Notes under the pieces: model-generated | What the model saw: only the letters and a program-made list of their open reading frames with translations | What the model was told of the DNA's origin: nothing | Database searches by the model: none | Assembly: GCA_947571115.1 (NCBI GenBank) | Contig: CANOWW010000002.1 | Span: 1 to 64,000, forward strand | From: an uncultured Clostridium sp. | GTDB taxonomy: Bacteria > Bacillota > Clostridia > TANB77 > CAG-508 | Direction of reading: 5' to 3' | DNA length: 64,000 bases | Made by a program: the position numbers and the translations under genes | In this document: positions 1,674-61,098 of the stretch, one piece after another | Numbering within the stretch: position 1 is the first letter of the stretch | Layout: each line of letters starts with the position of its first letter

Positions 1674-1979
1674 TTACTCTTCTTCTTTGGTAAAATCATC
1701 ATACACTGGTTCAAAATATTTGAAAAAGCACTCATAATCTAAGCATTCTGCGCTCCACTTTTCTTCTCCCTTCTTATTCTCGCGCCAAATACAGAGACCA
1801 CCATATGGTCCCTTTTTCACATAATAAATCTTTTGTTTCTTTACAAGCTCCTCCTCCAATATGGGCGCCATATCTGGTAACTCAATTTTCGACCGCACTT
1901 TAACTTCTCCTGCAGTATCTAAATGCTTCAGGAATTCAAACTTTTCGATGTTTTCTCTTATCTTTTCAGTAAAATGCAT
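1674..1979 (-). CDS. Hypothetical protein, 101 residues
   Basis: I do not recognise this protein. It is small, soluble and charged, without a signal peptide or membrane segment. The first ~60 residues look helical; the middle has aromatic and glycine residues (KKGPYGGLCIW) and the C-terminus is acidic. It stands alone as a single-gene unit: its own promoter of the conserved spacer-palindrome family lies at 2059-2087 and its own terminator at 1606-1648. GC content appears higher than that of neighbouring housekeeping genes. It resembles in layout the other small unknown units at 9.1-10.5, 35.1 and 54.2 kb, but I see no clear sequence similarity among them. Confidence 0.75.
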   Translation of the reverse strand: MHFTEKIRENIEKFEFLKHLDTAGEVKVRSKIELPDMAPILEEELVKKQKIYYVKKGPYGGLCIWRENKKGEEKWSAECLDYECFFKYFEPVYDDFTKEEE

Positions 1980-7588: not shown

Positions 7589-8947
7589 TTATTTTCCTAG
7601 GCAAAATTTCGCAAAAATCTCATTAATAACATCTTCTGTAACGCTCTCCCCCGTAATCTTTCCAACTTCCTCAATAATCTCCTTCAAATACGAAGAAATA
7701 ATGTCAATTGGCAGATTATGAGCCATAATCTCTTGCGCTTTCTTCACACAATCGTGACTATTACGAATCAAACTTTTGTGACGCTGATTACTCACAATTA
7801 ATTCGCCATCCACCGCAATTTCACTCAGTTTCAAGGTATCCGAAATTGCCTTATATAAGTTATCCACACCCCATTTATTTTTTGCAGAAATTTCGACAAT
7901 TTTCTTGCCCAACCTCTCTATCTCCGCCATATCAATACGTTTTTCCAAATCCATTTTATTAAGCAAAATAATCGCATTTTTATCTTTGACTAAATCCAAA
8001 ATTTTGCCATCTTCCTCATCCATCTCTTGAGAAGCATCCAAAATCACAAGCGCAATATCGCTATCTTGCAACATTCTCAACGACTTTTCCACACCAATTT
8101 TCTCAACTTCATCCTTCGCATTACGAATACCCGCCGTATCAATTATTTTCAAAGGCACACCGTCAACATTAGCAAATTCCTCAATCGTATCTCTCGTCGT
8201 CCCCTCAATATCTGTCACAATCGCGCGTTCTTCATTCAAAATCAAATTTAGCAACGACGATTTCCCAGCGTTCGGCTTCCCTATTATAGCGACTTTCACG
8301 CCCTCACGCAAAATTTTGCCATTTAAGAAGCTTTTTTCGAGATTGCCTAGTAATTTATCGATTTTTTTCAAAACGTCGCTTATTTTAGCTCCTGTGACTT
8401 CCTCCACGTCATACTCCGGATAATCAATGGTTACCTCGATATCAGCAAGCAGAGAAACCACTTCTTTTCGGATTTCCCTTAATTTTTGTGACAAATTTCC
8501 CTCCAATTGGTCCATTGCCACCTTGCTTTCCTTCTCCGTTTTAGAATGAATCACATCAATCACAGCTTCTGCTTGCGACAAATCCATTCTGCCATTCAAA
8601 AAAGCTCTTTTCGTAAATTCCCCCGGTTCGGCCAAAACTGCACCATTTTTCAAGCAAAGCTCCAAAATTTGGTTCATAACCACAATGCCACCATGGGAAT
8701 TAATTTCGCACATATTTTCTGTTGTATAACTTTTGGGTGCCATAAAAAAGGAAACGAGCACCTCGTCCACAATTTTACCAGAGTTATCCACAATTTTGCC
8801 ATATTTTAGTGTATAACTTTTCGGCTTCGTTTTATTTTTTGGCACAAAAAAACAATTTAAGATGTCAAAACAATCCTCCCCACTCATTCGTATAATGCCA
8901 ATTCCGCCAATTCCGGGCGAAGTCGCTATCGCGGCAATGGTACTCAT
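7589..8947 (-). CDS. mnmE: tRNA modification GTPase MnmE (TrmE)
   Basis: MnmE is the GTP-hydrolysing, tetrahydrofolate-binding partner of MnmG in wobble-uridine modification. The 452-residue protein has the N-terminal folate domain (AIATSPGIGGIGIIRMSG), a helical domain, an inserted G domain with GKPNAGKSSLLN (G1), DTAGIR (G3) and LNKMD (G4), and ends with the conserved FCLGK, whose Cys is a family hallmark. AAAGGAG precedes the ATG. In many relatives jag is directly upstream; here four small unknown genes intervene. Two exact DnaA boxes (7860 and 8784) fall in the coding sequence. Confidence 0.97.
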   Translation of the reverse strand: MSTIAAIATSPGIGGIGIIRMSGEDCFDILNCFFVPKNKTKPKSYTLKYGKIVDNSGKIVDEVLVSFFMAPKSYTTENMCEINSHGGIVVMNQILELCLKNGAVLAEPGEFTKRAFLNGRMDLSQAEAVIDVIHSKTEKESKVAMDQLEGNLSQKLREIRKEVVSLLADIEVTIDYPEYDVEEVTGAKISDVLKKIDKLLGNLEKSFLNGKILREGVKVAIIGKPNAGKSSLLNLILNEERAIVTDIEGTTRDTIEEFANVDGVPLKIIDTAGIRNAKDEVEKIGVEKSLRMLQDSDIALVILDASQEMDEEDGKILDLVKDKNAIILLNKMDLEKRIDMAEIERLGKKIVEISAKNKWGVDNLYKAISDTLKLSEIAVDGELIVSNQRHKSLIRNSHDCVKKAQEIMAHNLPIDIISSYLKEIIEEVGKITGESVTEDVINEIFAKFCLGK

Positions 8948-9048
8948 AATCCTCTCCTTTTATCTTATTTCACATTTAAATTATATCACAGTAAACTACG
9001 CCACGCAAGCCCAAAAATAGCTTTTTTTATATTTTTATCCACAGAAAA

Positions 9049-9079
9049 TGTCCCCTCACTTTTCACAAGCTTGGGGACA
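9049..9079 (-). terminator. Terminator of the 70-residue unknown gene
   Basis: TGTCCCC (9049-9055) pairs with GGGGACA (9073-9079), followed on the minus strand by TTTTC and then an exact DnaA box at 9035-9043. Confidence 0.7.
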
Positions 9080-9119
9080 CAAAAGATAAGTTCTTTAGAA
9101 AAAAACAGAAATTAGAATT

Positions 9120-9332
9120 TTAATCATCCGCCAGTTCTACATCCTTAACACCGCCTCCAACATGTTCAATGTTGACATGTACCTGCTTTCCATCTTTAGA
9201 AATAACTTTGCATATTGGCTCAGTGCTAAATGTTCGATCATCAAATGGAGACAATTTTAAAATTTGCTTCGCTTCCTTTTCAGTGATTTCAATACCTTCA
9301 TCACCTAATATCCGCATTAACTTTTTTTCCAT
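9120..9332 (-). CDS. Hypothetical protein, 70 residues
   Basis: I do not recognise this protein. The frame is open up to 9434, but the promoter (-35/-10 at 9404-9376) lies inside that longer frame, so the first usable start is the ATG at 9332, which follows AGGAAAGAAGAGAA. The protein begins MEKKLMRILGDEGIEITEKE, is soluble and acidic at the C-terminus, and has a short glycine-rich turn (VGGGVKD). It is a single-gene unit with its own promoter and terminator, one of a run of similar small units between mnmE and jag. Confidence 0.75.
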   Translation of the reverse strand: MEKKLMRILGDEGIEITEKEAKQILKLSPFDDRTFSTEPICKVISKDGKQVHVNIEHVGGGVKDVELADD

Positions 9333-9375
9333 TTCTCTTCTTTCCTTTCTTTCTGCTAAATTTTTCAACATATTT

Positions 9376-9404
9376 ATTATAGCATATTTTACATAAAATG
9401 TCAA
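9376..9404 (-). promoter_or_regulatory. Promoter with conserved spacer palindrome
   Basis: The minus strand reads TTGACA, the 17-base spacer TTTTATGTAAAATATGC, then TATAAT. An exact DnaA box (9422-9430) lies 18 bases upstream of the -35. Confidence 0.9.
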
Positions 9405-9430
9405 TATACCACCGCCGTTATTTATCCACA

Positions 9431-9471
9431 GCAAAAAGGCAGGTGGCTCACTTGCTCCGCCTGCCCTTTGC
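9431..9471 (-). terminator. Terminator of the 64-residue unknown gene
   Basis: The minus strand reads GCAAAGGGCAGGCGG, then a loop containing GAGCAAGTGAG, then CCACCTGCCTTTTTGC. Its inner sequence TCACTTGCTCC is shared with the terminator at 9787-9829. Confidence 0.75.
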
Positions 9472-9496
9472 TATTCATTACATGAAAAATCATCAC

Positions 9497-9691
9497 TTAA
9501 CGCGTCTGAATTGTGAGTTCTCCCTTTTTATTCTTCCAAATATAATATCTTTTTTTCAGCTGAATAAAATAGAGATTTTCGCCCTCTACCTGCCTTACAT
9601 ACTGGATTTTTTGCTCTAATTCTTCTTTAGTAACCTCCTCCTTTTCCTCCTGCATCCGTTTGAAAATAACTTCCAATTGTTCTTCGTTCAT
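9497..9691 (-). CDS. Hypothetical protein, 64 residues
   Basis: I do not recognise this protein. The start is set by AAGGAGG seven bases before the ATG at 9691; the frame is also open to 9706. It is highly charged: a Glu/Lys-rich helix (MNEEQLEVIFKRMQEEKEEV) followed by an aromatic, probably beta-stranded half (ENLYFIQLKKRYYIWKNKKG). It carries no signal or membrane segment. It forms a single-gene unit with its own promoter (9739-9767) and terminator. Confidence 0.75.
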   Translation of the reverse strand: MNEEQLEVIFKRMQEEKEEVTKEELEQKIQYVRQVEGENLYFIQLKKRYYIWKNKKGELTIQTR

Positions 9692-9738
9692 TTTGTCCTC
9701 CTTCATGATGAAATATTTTCTATAACAATAACTTATAT

Positions 9739-9767
9739 ATTATATAATAATTTCCATAATATGTCAA
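9739..9767 (-). promoter_or_regulatory. Promoter, variant of the spacer-palindrome family
   Basis: The minus strand reads TTGACA, the spacer TATTATGGAAATTATTA and TATAAT. The spacer has the same A/T palindromic layout but differs at several positions from the main type. An exact DnaA box (9776-9784) lies nine bases upstream of the -35. Confidence 0.85.
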
Positions 9768-9786
9768 TTATTTTTTTATCCACATA

Positions 9787-9829
9787 GCAAAAGAGCAAGT
9801 GTCTCACTTGCTCCCTCCTGCCCTTTTGC
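9787..9829 (-). terminator. Terminator of the 148/79-residue gene pair
   Basis: The minus strand shows GCAAAAGGGCAGGAGGGAGC closing onto CACTTGCTCTTTTGC, with the inner stem GAGCAAGTG/CACTTGCTC. It is directly followed by an exact DnaA box. Confidence 0.7.
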
Positions 9830-10069
9830 CTAATGTCTTTTTATTACTTGCACATGCACCACTTCTTCAGTATCTCTGTCTATCCAAGCATAAAAAGACA
9901 CTTCATCGATTTTCGCATAAAACTTCCCCTTTTCAGTAACCTCTTTTAATTCCATTTCTTCAATTTTTTCCAATGGAACCCGCGGATGTCTTATGCCCTG
10001 CCTGACAAGTTCTTTTTTTAAAAGAAGTCTCACTTCTTTTTTTTGACTTGGCGTCATATCATTCTTCAT
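9830..10069 (-). CDS. Hypothetical protein, 79 residues
   Basis: I do not recognise this protein. It is basic at the N-terminus (SQKKEVRLLLKKELVRQG) with a beta-rich C-terminal half (KFYAKIDEVSFYAWIDRDTEEVVHVQVI), reminiscent of short alpha/beta modules. It overlaps the 148-residue gene by 11 bases, so the two are translationally coupled. The pair shares the promoter at 10562-10590 (and possibly the one at 10673-10701) and the terminator at 9787-9829. Confidence 0.75.
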   Translation of the reverse strand: MKNDMTPSQKKEVRLLLKKELVRQGIRHPRVPLEKIEEMELKEVTEKGKFYAKIDEVSFYAWIDRDTEEVVHVQVIKRH

Positions 10070-10505
10070 GTTCAGTCTCTCCTTTCAAAAAAGGCGAAGC
10101 AACAACATCTCCTTCCAGAAGTGGGTACCAGCGTCCGTCGCAAGCTTTCACAGCCCGTCTCCAGCCAAATCGTTGCATATTTTTCTGAATGAACCCTAAA
10201 AACTTAAAAGAGGAACACTCTGCATCATCTTCTTCATCTTCAAAAATACTTTCTTTCTTTGGCTCTTGCGGCAATAATTCTTGAGCTTTCTTGAAAAGTT
10301 CACACACCTCCAAAAAAGAATACTCCTGTCCGAAATATGTCCAGCCAGTATAATTTTGGCCAAACTTCATCTTGTTATCGGTATCAAAAAATCGATACGC
10401 GATCATGTTCGCAGGGAAAATTATCGATTTCCGTTCAGCAATCTCAATTTCCACAGTCGAACTCTTCATCGGATATGAAATCATTACTTCAATAAAATGT
10501 CTCAT
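10059..10505 (-). CDS. Hypothetical protein, 148 residues
   Basis: I do not recognise this protein. The N-terminal 55 residues alternate hydrophobic residues as beta strands (FIEVMISYPMKSSTVEIEIA), then comes a helix (YSFLEVCELFKKAQELL), an acidic stretch (FEDEEDDAE) and a C-terminal part with FGWRRAVKACDGRWYPL. No signal or membrane segment is visible. GC content is about 42% by hand count over most of the gene, well above neighbouring housekeeping genes. It is followed by an overlapping small gene in the same operon. Confidence 0.75.
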   Translation of the reverse strand: MRHFIEVMISYPMKSSTVEIEIAERKSIIFPANMIAYRFFDTDNKMKFGQNYTGWTYFGQEYSFLEVCELFKKAQELLPQEPKKESIFEDEEDDAECSSFKFLGFIQKNMQRFGWRRAVKACDGRWYPLLEGDVVASPFLKGETEHEE

Positions 10506-10561
10506 AATCTCTCTCCTTCCTTAAGCAGCATCTTATTCATTTCTAAAATTTTTATAGCGTG

Positions 10562-10590
10562 ATTATATCATAATTTACATAAAATGTCAA
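10562..10590 (-). promoter_or_regulatory. Promoter with conserved spacer palindrome
   Basis: The minus strand reads TTGACA, spacer TTTTATGTAAATTATGA (17), TATAAT. A near-match DnaA box (one mismatch, TAATCCACA) begins next to the -35. Confidence 0.85.
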
Positions 10591-10672
10591 TAATCCACAG
10601 CCATTATTTTCAACTTTTTTGCATGCCACGTGTCCTCTCTCTTCAACAAAAGTTTATAACTTGAATATAAAT

Positions 10673-10701
10673 ATTATATCACACTTTGCATAAAACGTCA
10701 A
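10673..10701 (-). promoter_or_regulatory. Second upstream promoter of the same family
   Basis: The minus strand reads TTGACG, spacer TTTTATGCAAAGTGTGA (17), TATAAT. It lies 83-111 bases upstream of the promoter at 10562 with no gene between, so it either adds to expression of the same pair or is a remnant of a lost unit. Confidence 0.7.
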
Positions 10702-10724: not shown

Positions 10725-10748
10725 AAATAAAGGCTTCTGCCTTTATTT
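10725..10748 (-). terminator. Terminator of the rnpA-yidD-yidC-jag transcript
   Basis: AAATAAAGGC pairs perfectly with GCCTTTATTT across a four-base loop, followed by a T run on the minus strand. It overlaps the jag stop codon. Confidence 0.8.
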
Positions 10749-11411
10749 CAAACTTACTACTACTTTTCGATATGGTTCTCTTCCTATACTATGTGTTGTC
10801 ACTTGTTCATGATTTTGTAAAACACTATGAACCACTTTTCGATCAAATGCACTCATTGGCTCCAACGTCACAGATTTTCTCGTCTTTACTACAGATTCTG
10901 CAATTCGTTTCGACAAATTCGTCAAATCCTTTTCCCTCTTTTCGCGATAATTACTAATATTTAGCAAAACACGCACTTTTTCTTGCTTATCATTACTTGC
11001 AACATTCGACAAAATATTTTGTAAACTATTCAGTGTTTCGCCCCTATAACCAATCAAAAAAGCCGCCCTTTCATCATGAATATCAATTTTTATCAAACTT
11101 TCCTCTTTTTTAATGGTATATGCCAAATCCTTAATTGGCAATTTCGCCATAAAATCATGGACGAACTTTTCTAACTCCTGTATTACTTGTTCCATCTCTT
11201 TGGTCTCTTTAGGTTTTGTTTTCATGCCTTCTTTCCATTTCATTTCAACCTTCACAACTTTCGGTGCCAAAATACTAAAAAATGTTTTTTTATCTTCTTC
11301 CTCAAGCACTTTAATTTCTACTTTATTTTTCGTTGTTTTCAACTCTCTTAATCCTTTTTCAATTGCTTCATTTGTGGTTTTTCCTTCAAAAATGTACGTT
11401 TTTTCTTCCAT
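10743..11411 (-). CDS. jag: Jag/KhpB RNA-binding protein (SpoIIIJ-associated)
   Basis: This 222-residue protein has the three-part Jag architecture: an N-terminal Jag-N domain (YIFEGKTTNEAIEKGLRELK, residues ~5-50), a linker, a KH domain with the loop FLIGYRGETLNSLQNIL (~140-156), and a C-terminal R3H domain ending in RKSVTLEPMSAFDRKVVHSV and RKVVVSL. KhpB-type proteins bind RNA and influence cell elongation and division. It follows yidC by two bases, the usual arrangement. GGAGG precedes the ATG. Confidence 0.95.
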   Translation of the reverse strand: MEEKTYIFEGKTTNEAIEKGLRELKTTKNKVEIKVLEEEDKKTFFSILAPKVVKVEMKWKEGMKTKPKETKEMEQVIQELEKFVHDFMAKLPIKDLAYTIKKEESLIKIDIHDERAAFLIGYRGETLNSLQNILSNVASNDKQEKVRVLLNISNYREKREKDLTNLSKRIAESVVKTRKSVTLEPMSAFDRKVVHSVLQNHEQVTTHSIGREPYRKVVVSLK

Positions 11412-13146: not shown

Positions 13147-14451
13147 TTATAACCAATTAAAATATTCTTCGTCAATCTCTTTGTCAGTCCATCCCTCTTT
13201 TTGCTTTTCTCTCACTTCTCTCGGATTTGTTGGTTTCTTTAATTTTCTAAGTGTTCCGTCTTTGTTCACTATTGTTAATACGCCATCCACATCAATATAT
13301 GAGCCACTTCGGAAAATTTTATTGCCTTTCGCTGCTCTAAGAAGACTTGAGCTCACATGAATTGGCGAATTTAAATCACTCGCTATATAAAAAGCATTTG
13401 ATCCTACATTTTTTAAAAAAGGCATCTCTCCAATATCTCTTATTGAAGTTCCCTCAAAACAACTCCACTCTATTTCCTCTATATTTTTTCCAAATCGAAC
13501 TTTTTTCAAATTTCTACAACAAAAAAAAGCAGAGTCTCTTATTTTTTTTAAATTATCCCCAAATTCTACTTCTTCCAAGTTATACATCCATCCAAATGAT
13601 TCTCTTCCAATCTCTTCTACATCATCTGAAAAAATAACTTTTTTTATTTTTTCTGCAACCTCTGATCTTCCTACTACTTTATTCACATTTCTTCCCAATA
13701 TTAACTCCTGTAAATTAGGTAACCTTTCAATATATTGCATATTCACTTTTTTTACATCGTTAATTTCTAGCCCAATACAATCCTCCATTTTTCTTTTCGG
13801 CGGATAGGCATGATATTCCTCTCGAATAGGCACCCATTCTTGCTTTTCTTCATCAAACTTTCCAATGACATATTTGCTTGTCCCTTTTCCCAATAATATT
13901 TTTCTCAAAAATGGTGTTTTTTGTGGCAAACTTTTAGCTGGAACCTGCTTGTCTTGAATTTCAAGCTTTGAGTCAATTTTTTCAAAAAGACTAAACGCTT
14001 TCCATATCTTATTGTTTTCTAAATTCTCCTCACTAATTTCCATGCTCATTTTTAAAACATCATAAGCCACACTTTTATCAATTTCCTCCATTTTTTCCGC
14101 AAACTGAACAAACTGATTTTGGATTTCCGAAGCAAACGCTTTTGGCGTTGTTACCTCTTCTACTGTTTCAAAATCAATTGGTTTCTCATTTTTAGCCTGC
14201 TCCTTAAAAATAAGCAACAAAGCCTTTGCCATATATTCCTCAAACTTTGCTAATAACTCTGGCTCTAATCCTAAACTTCGTACTTCTTGCGTGGTTGTTT
14301 TCAAATCCTGTAAAAGCTCTTCAAAATTGTCTCCCACTGCACAAAAATGACTTTTATATTTGGTAACGAACTCAGAAACGACTTTATTAAGGGTTTCCTC
14401 TTTTTCATTTTTTCGGGAACCTTCTTCAAAATTTTCTATTTCCAAATCCAT
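13147..14451 (-). CDS. Cytoplasmic leucine-rich-repeat protein (BspA-like repeats)
   Basis: The 434-residue protein has an N-terminal helical half (about residues 1-200) of unknown identity and a C-terminal half with about five irregular leucine-rich repeats of the BspA/LRR_5 type (for example LQELILGRNVNKVVG, LEEVEFGDNLKKI, LKKVRFGKNIEEIEW). No signal peptide, anchor or membrane helix is visible, which is unusual for BspA-type proteins, normally secreted. The start is set by GGAG seven bases before the ATG at 14451. It is separated from rpmH and driven by its own spacer-palindrome promoter at 14484-14512. Function unknown; protein binding is likely. Confidence 0.8.
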   Translation of the reverse strand: MDLEIENFEEGSRKNEKEETLNKVVSEFVTKYKSHFCAVGDNFEELLQDLKTTTQEVRSLGLEPELLAKFEEYMAKALLLIFKEQAKNEKPIDFETVEEVTTPKAFASEIQNQFVQFAEKMEEIDKSVAYDVLKMSMEISEENLENNKIWKAFSLFEKIDSKLEIQDKQVPAKSLPQKTPFLRKILLGKGTSKYVIGKFDEEKQEWVPIREEYHAYPPKRKMEDCIGLEINDVKKVNMQYIERLPNLQELILGRNVNKVVGRSEVAEKIKKVIFSDDVEEIGRESFGWMYNLEEVEFGDNLKKIRDSAFFCCRNLKKVRFGKNIEEIEWSCFEGTSIRDIGEMPFLKNVGSNAFYIASDLNSPIHVSSSLLRAAKGNKIFRSGSYIDVDGVLTIVNKDGTLRKLKKPTNPREVREKQKEGWTDKEIDEEYFNWL

Positions 14452-31553: not shown

Positions 31554-31582
31554 TTGACATTTTATGTAAATAGTGATAAAAT
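31554..31582 (+). promoter_or_regulatory. Promoter of the spacer-palindrome family
   Basis: TTGACA, spacer TTTTATGTAAATAGTGA (17), TAAAAT. It drives the 67-residue gene. Confidence 0.85.
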
Positions 31583-31610: not shown

Positions 31611-31814
31611 ATGCCATATAATGTATTATATCGGAAATTAATAGAAACTTTAAAGAAGTTTAATTTTTCCGAAGATGACATTTTCTATTCTGACTATGTG
31701 GCAGAAAAAAATATGTTCTGTCTGAGTATGCAAAACAGGATATATTTGCCAGAATGGCGAATTATGCACGAATTTTGGTGTAATACTGGATTTAATTTAG
31801 AATTTGTGCATTAA
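31611..31814 (+). CDS. Hypothetical protein, 67 residues
   Basis: I do not recognise this protein. It begins MPYNVLYRKLIETLKKFNFS and has an aromatic-rich C-terminal half (RIYLPEWRIMHEFWCNTGFN). It is soluble, with no signal. GGAGGTGA lies in front of the ATG. It is a single-gene unit with its own spacer-palindrome promoter and a strong terminator shared with the convergent fusion gene, the same layout as the other small unknown units. Confidence 0.75.
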   Translation: MPYNVLYRKLIETLKKFNFSEDDIFYSDYVAEKNMFCLSMQNRIYLPEWRIMHEFWCNTGFNLEFVH

Positions 31815-35096: not shown

Positions 35097-35447
35097 TTAC
35101 GGATCCAGCCGCCATACCCATTTGTCTGCCTCATTCCACCAAATAGTGACGCCTTCGGTGTCCTCGACAAGTTCTGCACCCATGCTTTTTAAGATTTCAT
35201 CTTTGTCTGGATCAAATTTCCAGCGTTTAAAAAACAGTGGCATTTGAGACTCTTTGGAAAGGATTTCCAGAGCCTCTTTCGCAGTTTCTGCATCTTTGCG
35301 AAGGAAGCAAAAAGATAACACACAAATGTTATGATATGTTTCTGTATCTACACTGATATCAAAAGAACCGCAAATTGTTTCTTCTCCCTCTTTCGTTACC
35401 CAAATAATCCACCGTTTGCCGTCAGTATTGTCTGCCTCAAGTCTCAT
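35097..35447 (-). CDS. Hypothetical protein, 116 residues, possibly acetyltransferase-like
   Basis: I do not recognise this protein with confidence. Strands alternate with one helix (KDAETAKEALEILSKES) and the C-terminal part KSMGAELVEDTEGVTIWW recalls the end of GNAT acetyltransferases, but the acetyl-CoA loop is not evident. GC content is about 46% by hand count over half the gene, against about 30% around it, hinting at a foreign origin. AAAGGAGG precedes the ATG. It is a single-gene unit with the spacer-palindrome promoter at 35499-35527 and its own terminator. Confidence 0.75.
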   Translation of the reverse strand: MRLEADNTDGKRWIIWVTKEGEETICGSFDISVDTETYHNICVLSFCFLRKDAETAKEALEILSKESQMPLFFKRWKFDPDKDEILKSMGAELVEDTEGVTIWWNEADKWVWRLDP

Positions 35448-42049: not shown

Positions 42050-42427
42050 TTAATCTAGTAAGGAAATTGAGCGTAAAACATGAAAACCAATGCTTATCAT
42101 AAATTCTTCTCGCTGTTTTTCATCAAAATCGTTGTACAATTTTGTAAGTAGGTCACATAGCTCAGCGCGAGTAGCATCGTGCAATCTAATGCGACGTATT
42201 ACAACTGAAATGTCTCTAATCGATTCAACAAATACATCTTTCTTATACAACTCTCTCATAAGCTCATTTAAGATGTGCAGTTGGAATCTTATCTCTTTTA
42301 ATGTGCTTGCTCTGCGAATTCTCATGTTGGCTACAGCTATACCCTCAAATATTTCGCTAAGTTCTGCCCAAGAATATGTTACTAAGTGGTTGTTTTTGGT
42401 AATTTTATTGTTCATATTCTTTTTCAT
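42050..42427 (-). CDS. Hypothetical protein, 125 residues
   Basis: I do not recognise this protein. The frame is open to 42736, but that would overlap murA and its own promoter (42476-42504); the ATG at 42427 follows AAAGGTGG. It is entirely helical and charged (WAELSEIFEGIAVANMRIRR; LHILNELMRELYKKDV; ATRAELCDLLTKLYNDFDEK). It is a single-gene unit with a promoter of the spacer-palindrome family. Confidence 0.75.
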   Translation of the reverse strand: MKKNMNNKITKNNHLVTYSWAELSEIFEGIAVANMRIRRASTLKEIRFQLHILNELMRELYKKDVFVESIRDISVVIRRIRLHDATRAELCDLLTKLYNDFDEKQREEFMISIGFHVLRSISLLD

Positions 42428-42475: not shown

Positions 42476-42504
42476 ATTATACCACATTATGTAAAATATG
42501 TCGA
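42476..42504 (-). promoter_or_regulatory. Promoter of the spacer-palindrome family
   Basis: The minus strand reads TCGACA, spacer TATTTTACATAATGTGG (17), TATAAT. The palindrome is present in the opposite orientation (ATTTTACATAAT). Confidence 0.8.
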
Positions 42505-54161: not shown

Positions 54162-54980
54162 ATGTTAAGAAATTACAATGGAGCTATCAATCATTCAGTG
54201 TTGCGGGAATTAAAAAAATTGTCCCAAGTGAATGCGGAAAATTTTAAGATTTTATGGGATGAATTCTCCTCCCAAAACAAAGTGTCTGTCTGGACCAATT
54301 TATGTCCAATTACGCACTGTCCAGATGAAATGTCTGGGACCGTTACTCTGAAAAGCAAAGCAGAGATTAAGGATTATCTGAAAAAAGACTTTGAGAGCAG
54401 ATTGGAGAATTATCTTCAGGAAAAGAGACCAAAAACAGATTTCTTGCTGACTGCAGTCATTTCTTTTTTGAAAGAGAACGAAGGGCGATATCCGAACAAA
54501 GAAGAAATGAGACAGCTGGAAATAGCAGCAGAAAATGAGAGGATTGCTTCTGCGCTGCCGGAGACTGAAACAGAACCGCCTGCGATACAGATGCTCTTGA
54601 GAGAAATTTTAGAGCTGGCAGAGGAAATCATGGAAACAAGGCGGGAGACCAAACCGGAGGAAATTCAAACGCATGTTGAGCCATATCCAGACGAGCTATG
54701 CTTGTCAAATGAGAACTGTTCTATCTCTATTGCCTATAGAAGATATTTGGGATATGGAAATAACAGGGATTATAGCTGCGAAATTGGAATAGATGATTAT
54801 CAAATCCACCTTTTCTATTGTAACGATACAGATCCCGATTTATATGTTAGAAATTGGAGTCTCGACAAATGGTTAGTAGATGTTATGATACAGGTTCACC
54901 AGTTCATTGCCCAAGTCGCGCAGCAAGAGGGATTTGAATTTGTAAGTGAAGTCGATTACGAAAAATGCGTAACAGAGTAA
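54162..54980 (+). CDS. Hypothetical protein, 272 residues
   Basis: I do not recognise this protein. It has an N-terminal part with basic and aromatic residues, a charged helical centre (RLENYLQEKRPKTDFLLTAV; LLREILELAEEIMETRRETK) and a C-terminal beta-rich part (NCSISIAYRRYLGYGNNRDY). No signal or membrane segment. Sampled stretches reach about 44% GC, clearly above flanking genes, suggesting foreign origin. AAGGAGG lies before the ATG. A TATAAT at 54100 has a weak TTGCAA -35; TTGACATAATATGATATAAT looks like a shortened relative of the spacer-palindrome promoters. Confidence 0.7.
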   Translation: MLRNYNGAINHSVLRELKKLSQVNAENFKILWDEFSSQNKVSVWTNLCPITHCPDEMSGTVTLKSKAEIKDYLKKDFESRLENYLQEKRPKTDFLLTAVISFLKENEGRYPNKEEMRQLEIAAENERIASALPETETEPPAIQMLLREILELAEEIMETRRETKPEEIQTHVEPYPDELCLSNENCSISIAYRRYLGYGNNRDYSCEIGIDDYQIHLFYCNDTDPDLYVRNWSLDKWLVDVMIQVHQFIAQVAQQEGFEFVSEVDYEKCVTE

Positions 54981-60539: not shown

Positions 60540-60568
60540 TTGACACTTTATGTAAAATATGTTATAAT
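60540..60568 (+). promoter_or_regulatory. Promoter with conserved spacer palindrome
   Basis: TTGACA, spacer CTTTATGTAAAATATGT (17), TATAAT. It drives the 154-residue membrane protein. Confidence 0.9.
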
Positions 60569-60633: not shown

Positions 60634-61098
60634 ATGATACAAGAATTAACAAAATGGTTTTATAGGCGGAATCCAAACTTAGCTTCAGCCATGATTGGAT
60701 GGAATTTCTTGGAACTTACCAGAATGTATGTAATTGCACTTATTCCGATTACTTTGAAAAATGTTGGAGTAACGGATATATTACTTATTGAAGGTTTAAT
60801 TGTAGCTTTCTTAATTGACTTTGATAAAAATTTGAAGCAAATGGTGGTTGTTTCTTTAGAACCACAACATTTGAGGATGGTAATTCAGGAAGAATTCAAG
60901 AAGAAACAACAACGGGAATTAGAATTTGCTCAGAAAAAAGTCCCTATGTTCAGTAATATTGTGAAATTTTTCTATTGGATTGGTATTTTTTCAAGTCCCA
61001 GTTTTGAGATGACAGTAAGTCTCACAATATTGTGTTTGATTACTTTTGAATATTTTTTTCTGATAAACACAGAAGCAGATAAACTTTTAAAAAAATAA
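60634..61098 (+). CDS. Hypothetical membrane protein, 154 residues
   Basis: I do not recognise this protein. The ATG at 60634 follows GAGGAGA; a longer frame from 60604 would leave that site inside. Two hydrophobic segments are likely near the N-terminus (YVIALIPITLKNVGVTDILL; LLIEGLIVAFLI) and two near the C-terminus (FYWIGIFSSPSFEMTVSLTI; LITFEYFFLI), with a Lys/Glu-rich stretch in the middle. It is a single-gene unit with a spacer-palindrome promoter and a strong terminator. Confidence 0.75.
   Translation: MIQELTKWFYRRNPNLASAMIGWNFLELTRMYVIALIPITLKNVGVTDILLIEGLIVAFLIDFDKNLKQMVVVSLEPQHLRMVIQEEFKKKQQRELEFAQKKVPMFSNIVKFFYWIGIFSSPSFEMTVSLTILCLITFEYFFLINTEADKLLKK

Follow-up and report, generated by a model that had tools for sequence, protein, structure and literature searches.

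Small gene units under one shared promoter as candidate moron-like accessory genes in the chromosome of an uncultured Clostridium sp.

The window (the whole 64,000-nucleotide stretch of DNA that was analysed) belongs to contig C2 of a metagenome-assembled genome (1.93 Mb, 44 contigs), and the closest named records to this genome are uncultured Clostridia from metagenome assemblies. It spans the origin region with parA, parB, rsmG, mnmG, mnmE, jag, yidC, rnpA, rpmH and dnaA, core genes that we take to be correctly named from their translations and general knowledge. An earlier note, made from the letters alone, had placed four small genes in three units between jag (10743..11411) and mnmE (7589..8947), and this arrangement was confirmed, with both conserved flanks and all four genes on the minus strand. 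The first unit contains u4 (10059..10505, 148 aa) and the orphan gene u3 (9830..10069, 79 aa), which overlaps the end of u4 and uses its promoter. The second and third units contain one orphan gene each, u2 (9497..9691, 64 aa) and u1 (9120..9332, 70 aa), the latter at the position that a different unit, family 2, occupies in the relative G038 and others. None of the four proteins had a Pfam match above the curated cut-off.

Each unit possesses its own expression signals, as the note had described. The promoter fits the sigma-A consensus, the ribosome binding site is strong and the terminator is a hairpin. The promoters of u4-u3 (10562..10590, TTGACATTTTATGTAAATTATGATATAAT), u2 (9739..9767, TTGACATATTATGGAAATTATTATATAAT, with a weaker spacer motif) and u1 (9376..9404, TTGACATTTTATGTAAAATATGCTATAAT), all on the minus strand, match 12 of 12 hexamer bases, with perfect TTGACA and TATAAT sequences 17 bases apart. 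A fourth minus-strand promoter (10673..10701) matches 11 of 12 hexamer bases and has no gene of its own; it is probably the relic of a lost first unit whose 69 aa gene is intact in G039 (L137) and disrupted in G067 (L380). Minus-strand hairpins after u3 (9784..9834, -19.5 kcal/mol), u2 (9421..9478, -26.4 kcal/mol) and u1 (9029..9085, -18.7 kcal/mol) were found by folding and had been missed by a simple terminator scan. The hairpins after u3 and u2 both contain TCACTTGCTCC, the sequence said to be common to two terminators, which occurs twice in the window and not at all in shuffles. Within 290 kb of sequence from this genome, the GGAGCAAGTG hairpin was found only between jag and mnmE, and 3' ends and terminators differ from locus to locus, where no common attC-like site was seen. 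The higher GC content suspected for some units was not borne out, as these genes have 29-42% GC vs. 32-41% in the adjacent core genes. The DnaA box TGTGGATAA was considered as a junction repeat between units and rejected; its copies are taken to be origin DnaA boxes because they cluster at 2-24 kb, around the origin, and also lie away from the units. Sixteen of the 22 TTATCCACA boxes of the 170 kb contig sit around the origin (window 2116-23102), where about 2.6 would be expected in all.

The same promoter precedes genes elsewhere in the window. Isolated units listed in the earlier note at 1674, 31611, 35097 and 60634 have it, the one at 42050 has a variant only and the one at 54162 has none. 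The genes with the promoter encode proteins of 101 aa (1674..1979, minus strand; promoter 2087-2059), 67 aa (31611..31814, plus strand; promoter 31554-31582), 116 aa (35097..35447, minus strand; promoter 35527-35499) and 154 aa (60634..61098, plus strand; promoter 60540-60568), the last shortened to 70 aa in G038. The variant promoter of the 42050 gene (42476..42504, minus strand, counted by hand) has its spacer centre reversed (TCGACATATTTTACATAATGTGGTATAAT, TTTACATAA). A gene for a 434 aa leucine-rich-repeat protein (13147..14451, minus strand; promoter 14512-14484), absent from that list, also belongs to the class. When the block from 1.7 to 20.8 kb was compared with G006, G023 and G012, all six genes missing from these relatives (1674, 9120, 9497, 9830, 10059, and 13147) were of the promoter class vs. 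none of 13 conserved genes (Fisher p = 4e-5), with u1 added from other comparisons, u3 counted through the u4 promoter and gene 18585, present in two of the three relatives, excluded.

The unit promoter has the form TTGACA-TTTTATGTAAAATATGN-TATAAT and a spacer that contains a near-palindrome; beyond these 29 bases the sites have little in common except a slight A/T preference. The pattern TTGACATTTTATGTAAAATATGATATAAT, with up to three mismatches allowed, had 34 matches in this genome and its reversed control had none. The pattern was rare in the rest of the genus sample (0-4 per genome) vs. 6-30 matches in each of twelve subclade relatives (G005, 21; G006, 17; G014, 25; G021, 17; G007, 6; G038, 13; G039, 21; G040, 19; G041, 24; G042, 17; G043, 16; G067, 30). 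In the 290 kb of its own sequence, element-bearing promoters sit before orphan genes and not before housekeeping genes, and the consensus promoters of rpmH, parA and a ferredoxin-like gene are without the TTATGTAAA element. The idea that the element is a general promoter feature of the group was rejected, since housekeeping promoters in the 290 kb do not have it; the exception is mnmE, which in many relatives is itself preceded by a related promoter with the element, so the element is not confined to accessory genes. In the literature, no description of a gene class marked in this way was found, which is weak evidence. An exact promoter copy, with one base left free, precedes a leader and a 265 aa gene on three related phage contigs (L417, L418, and L419).

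At the centre of the spacer element stands TG or, in fewer promoters, the reverse complement CA with the register unchanged, an alternation that fits a two-fold symmetric binding site. We infer that the symmetric element of the TTTTATGTAAAA promoter may act as an operator, bound by a dimeric regulator that governs all units together, and the presence of this operator-like element in the promoters of many genes is what a regulon would display. The units could be a transcription factor's regulon, in which unrelated genes recruited the promoter in place and exchange is a side effect of gaps that tolerate accessory genes. Conservation of the element where the promoter surroundings differ, and its occurrence at mnmE of many relatives, are in keeping with such a regulon. 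However, no regulator was identified, and recruitment in place does not explain the constant leader and terminator found around different coding sequences (see below). Recruitment is the likeliest of the alternatives, at odds that we place well short of even.

The comparison of relatives that had been suggested as a check gave the pattern expected of exchange: the flanks are conserved and the number and identity of the units vary. At most of the roughly 80 jag-mnmE loci the gap is empty (56-400 bp), and units are present within the subclade. Identical genes in all relatives, which would have made the units ordinary core genes, were not found, as the u4-u3-u2 set was seen only in this genome, G067, G038 and G039. 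G038 has u4, u3 and u2 followed by family 2, a 74 aa unit; G039 has the 69 aa unit, an in-frame u4-u3 fusion, u2 and the decayed remains of family 2; in G067 the 69 aa gene is disrupted, and u4, u3, u2, and u1 follow. In the present genome the first unit is gone and a promoter, at 10701, is left in its place. Other subclade members contain an IrrE-like protein (so named by eye) along with family 2 (G041 and G042), family 2 (G005 and G006, the latter with one additional unit), no unit (G007), or two family 2 genes that flank a filamentous-phage-like element (G014). The G014 locus (L097; G014:C3, about 228.8-235.7 kb) encodes a Zot-type ATPase, a replication protein of the CRI type, an rve transposase and a coat-like protein of 58 aa. 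In two more distant genomes outside the subclade (L149 and L154), a gene that by eye resembles malQ (4-alpha-glucanotransferase) lies in reverse orientation between jag and mnmE. Because every genome compared was assembled from a metagenome, isolated cases of replacement could be assembly errors; the patterns recur across separate assemblies.

Two histories can be distinguished within the interval. The four carriers of u4-u3-u2 form one clade in the mnmE tree (support 100/98). Between this genome and G038, dS is 0.21-0.73 for u2, u3 and u4 and 0.23-0.88 for the flanks, and omega is 0.36 for u2, 0.30 for u3 and 0.53 for u4 vs. 0.02-0.08 for yidC, jag, mnmG and mnmE. Synonymous divergence resembles that of the flanks, and u2, u3 and u4 behave as genuine, fast-evolving genes that have been inherited vertically since the four-species ancestor. 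The alignment with G038 continues through the u2 terminator, is followed by unrelated units and resumes upstream of mnmE. A homolog of u1 was detected only in G067 (59% amino acid identity) among 53 genus genomes, and u1 is probably a newcomer at the former place of family 2 because the outgroups carry family 2.

Known families were found for a minority of the 123 unit proteins. These include helix-turn-helix regulators, leucine-rich-repeat, patatin, TerF-like vWA, RelA/SpoT and JAB proteins and RpoD-like sigma factors, with matches to Pfam, PHROGs and PADLOC thinly spread and no family having more than three members. The domains suggest functions in regulation, defence and at the cell surface. 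Additional RpoD-like sigma factors (297-327 aa; L261, L286, L307, L364, and L325) under the same promoter class were seen in G005, G006, G014, G041 and G021; two unit proteins, both RpoD-like sigma factors, match MzaA of the MZA anti-phage system, and the upstream flank of the patatin unit of this genome (C2:141172) reads as rpoD. Relatives of u4 were found on five phage contigs (29-31% identity; 28% to the L415 protein), near a YqaJ-type recombinase gene where examined; the structure model of u4 was poor (pLDDT 53). The predicted fold of u2 (pLDDT 87.9) combines a pair of helices with a four-stranded sheet and had no significant structural match in the PDB or among viral models. Profile comparison points to a probable distant relationship between u2 and family 2, as the G039 copy of u2 had a profile match to that family (E 2e-5), yet the profile-profile probability was low. 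One fold common to all units was considered and rejected; u3 and u1 were not placed.

Replacement is seen at C2:104522, where six species have four unrelated proteins. In this genome, G067 and G038, the flank, promoter, leader, ribosome binding site and terminator are almost base-for-base identical, and the proteins between them (83, 99, and 123 aa, respectively) are no more similar than shuffles. No relative of the 83 aa protein was found in the genus sample; the G006 and G041 proteins are related to that of G038 (117-123 aa for the three), and the 75 aa protein of G007 was grouped by eye with family 2, elsewhere a family of the jag-mnmE interval. Since one promoter sometimes drives different genes in related species, the chromosome seems to carry fixed sockets where genes come, go or are exchanged. 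At two other loci, the sequences as read differ by a coding sequence that is present or absent behind an unchanged leader: at C1:48459, a JAB-domain gene lies between the leader and a conserved second gene in this genome and G038 and is absent from G067, and at L062 an additional coding sequence is present in G067 and absent from this genome.

How general such changes are was surveyed over 217 promoter-gene sites in 13 genomes, which provided 31 loci comparable between species. A single protein family was present at 21 of these, so exchange is not universal, and 10 were flagged as containing more than one unrelated protein. Inspection of the 10 left clean replacement only at C2:104522 and jag-mnmE, together with two insertions of coding sequences; the others were unresolved or artefacts. 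The 30 survey pairs scored as unrelated are an upper bound that includes coding sequence insertions (C1:48459 and L062), artefacts from adjacent units and doubtful short open reading frames. The survey covers promoter-detected loci, and empty sockets and units under other promoters are undersampled because loci were located by their promoter. At one socket (L260, L284, L312, and L328), RelA/SpoT-domain proteins are strongly diverged among four species; they are possible toxin-like alarmone synthetases. Over 1.7 kb that include a BlaI-like regulator (L216 vs. L066), this genome and G038 are 99% identical, where other matched stretches are about 78-93% identical, which possibly reflects a recent transfer.

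RelA/SpoT-like proteins at one locus were first scored as unrelated and were grouped by a more sensitive search, an example of how divergence past recognition can pass for replacement. All units might be vertically inherited, fast-evolving orphan genes that happen to use the strongest sigma-A promoter of the group, a description that suits u2, u3 and u4 with their synteny in four species, flank-like dS and omega of 0.30-0.53. It does not suit C2:104522, where proteins no more similar than shuffles lie between near-identical flanks and leaders, nor u1, which differs from the family 2 unit of G038 in its promoter surroundings and terminator as well, and the absence of the spacer element from housekeeping promoters is not what the strongest promoter of the group would predict. 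As an account of the whole class, divergence is unlikely and ranks behind the regulon.

The interpretation that we favour, with a probability of roughly 60%, is that the units are moron-like accessory genes, which form a genome-wide class at fixed sockets and are exchanged by recombination. Each has a near-identical sigma-A promoter, whose 17-base spacer includes TTTTAYRTAAAA, then a strong ribosome binding site, one or two coding sequences that are short and mostly orphans, and a hairpin terminator; some units would be of phage origin. The contents of one place differ between species where units have decayed, where a coding sequence has been gained or lost right behind the leader or where a whole unit has been replaced, and at one locus the coding sequence alone was replaced inside a constant frame of promoter, leader and terminator. 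Homologous recombination in the conserved flanks, once DNA from related strains has been taken up or transferred, could bring about these changes, and the shared promoter, as the sole sequence common to the loci, may be a further anchor. Of what the earlier note had proposed, frequently exchanged units with a common expression signal are upheld, and mobility is not supported, as neither a recombinase nor terminal repeats nor homology between loci beyond the promoter was noticed.

A more specific mechanism takes the promoter-leader and the terminator as the fixed socket at many places in the chromosome, with nonhomologous coding sequences swapped from start codon to terminator and the promoter acting as both common regulatory switch and homology anchor; this seems doubtful to us. 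Self-moving cassettes of the integron or transposon type, moved by a site-specific recombinase acting on the promoter or terminator, are improbable: boundaries at leader and terminator are precise and neighbouring units share TCACTTGCTCC hairpins, but between loci essentially the promoter alone is common, terminators differ, the GGAGCAAGTG hairpin is confined to jag-mnmE in the 290 kb, and no recombinase, terminal repeats or array structure were noticed on reading the loci.

The likeness of the units to morons has limits. Phage morons are independently expressed genes inserted in phage operons (PMC2629481). The units resemble them in having their own promoter and terminator, in lying between conserved genes, in varying among relatives with rapid flux and in the phage relatives of u4. 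They differ in that they reside in a bacterial chromosome, flanked by the core genes jag and mnmE and outside any phage or prophage operon, and in that some 35 of them are under one promoter with a spacer element, with a coding sequence exchanged within an otherwise constant frame. Morons often have an atypical base composition; the units do not, and their GC content is close to that of core genes. Chromosomal integration hotspots, where accessory genes are inserted between core genes, likewise have conserved flanks and variable contents, but the units share an expression signal wherever they are placed and comprise a single short gene or a pair, in most cases with no mobility genes. Integron cassettes are also small, exchangeable orphan genes; in contrast, the units are dispersed, each has its own promoter, and they are without a visible attC-like 3' site. 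Promoters borne on MITEs or other repeats supply many genes as well, whereas here the repeat is the 29-base promoter alone and no inverted ends or target duplications were noticed.

Most bacterial orphan genes lack a context that tells by which route they arrived or when they are expressed. In this lineage a single recognisable promoter marks many orphan genes throughout the genome, and for this reason the accessory class can be listed by a pattern search. Conserved sockets display the gain and replacement of coding sequences directly, and the turnover of orphan genes would be measurable locus by locus. The arrangement suggests that new genes can be expressed at once after landing behind a ready promoter.
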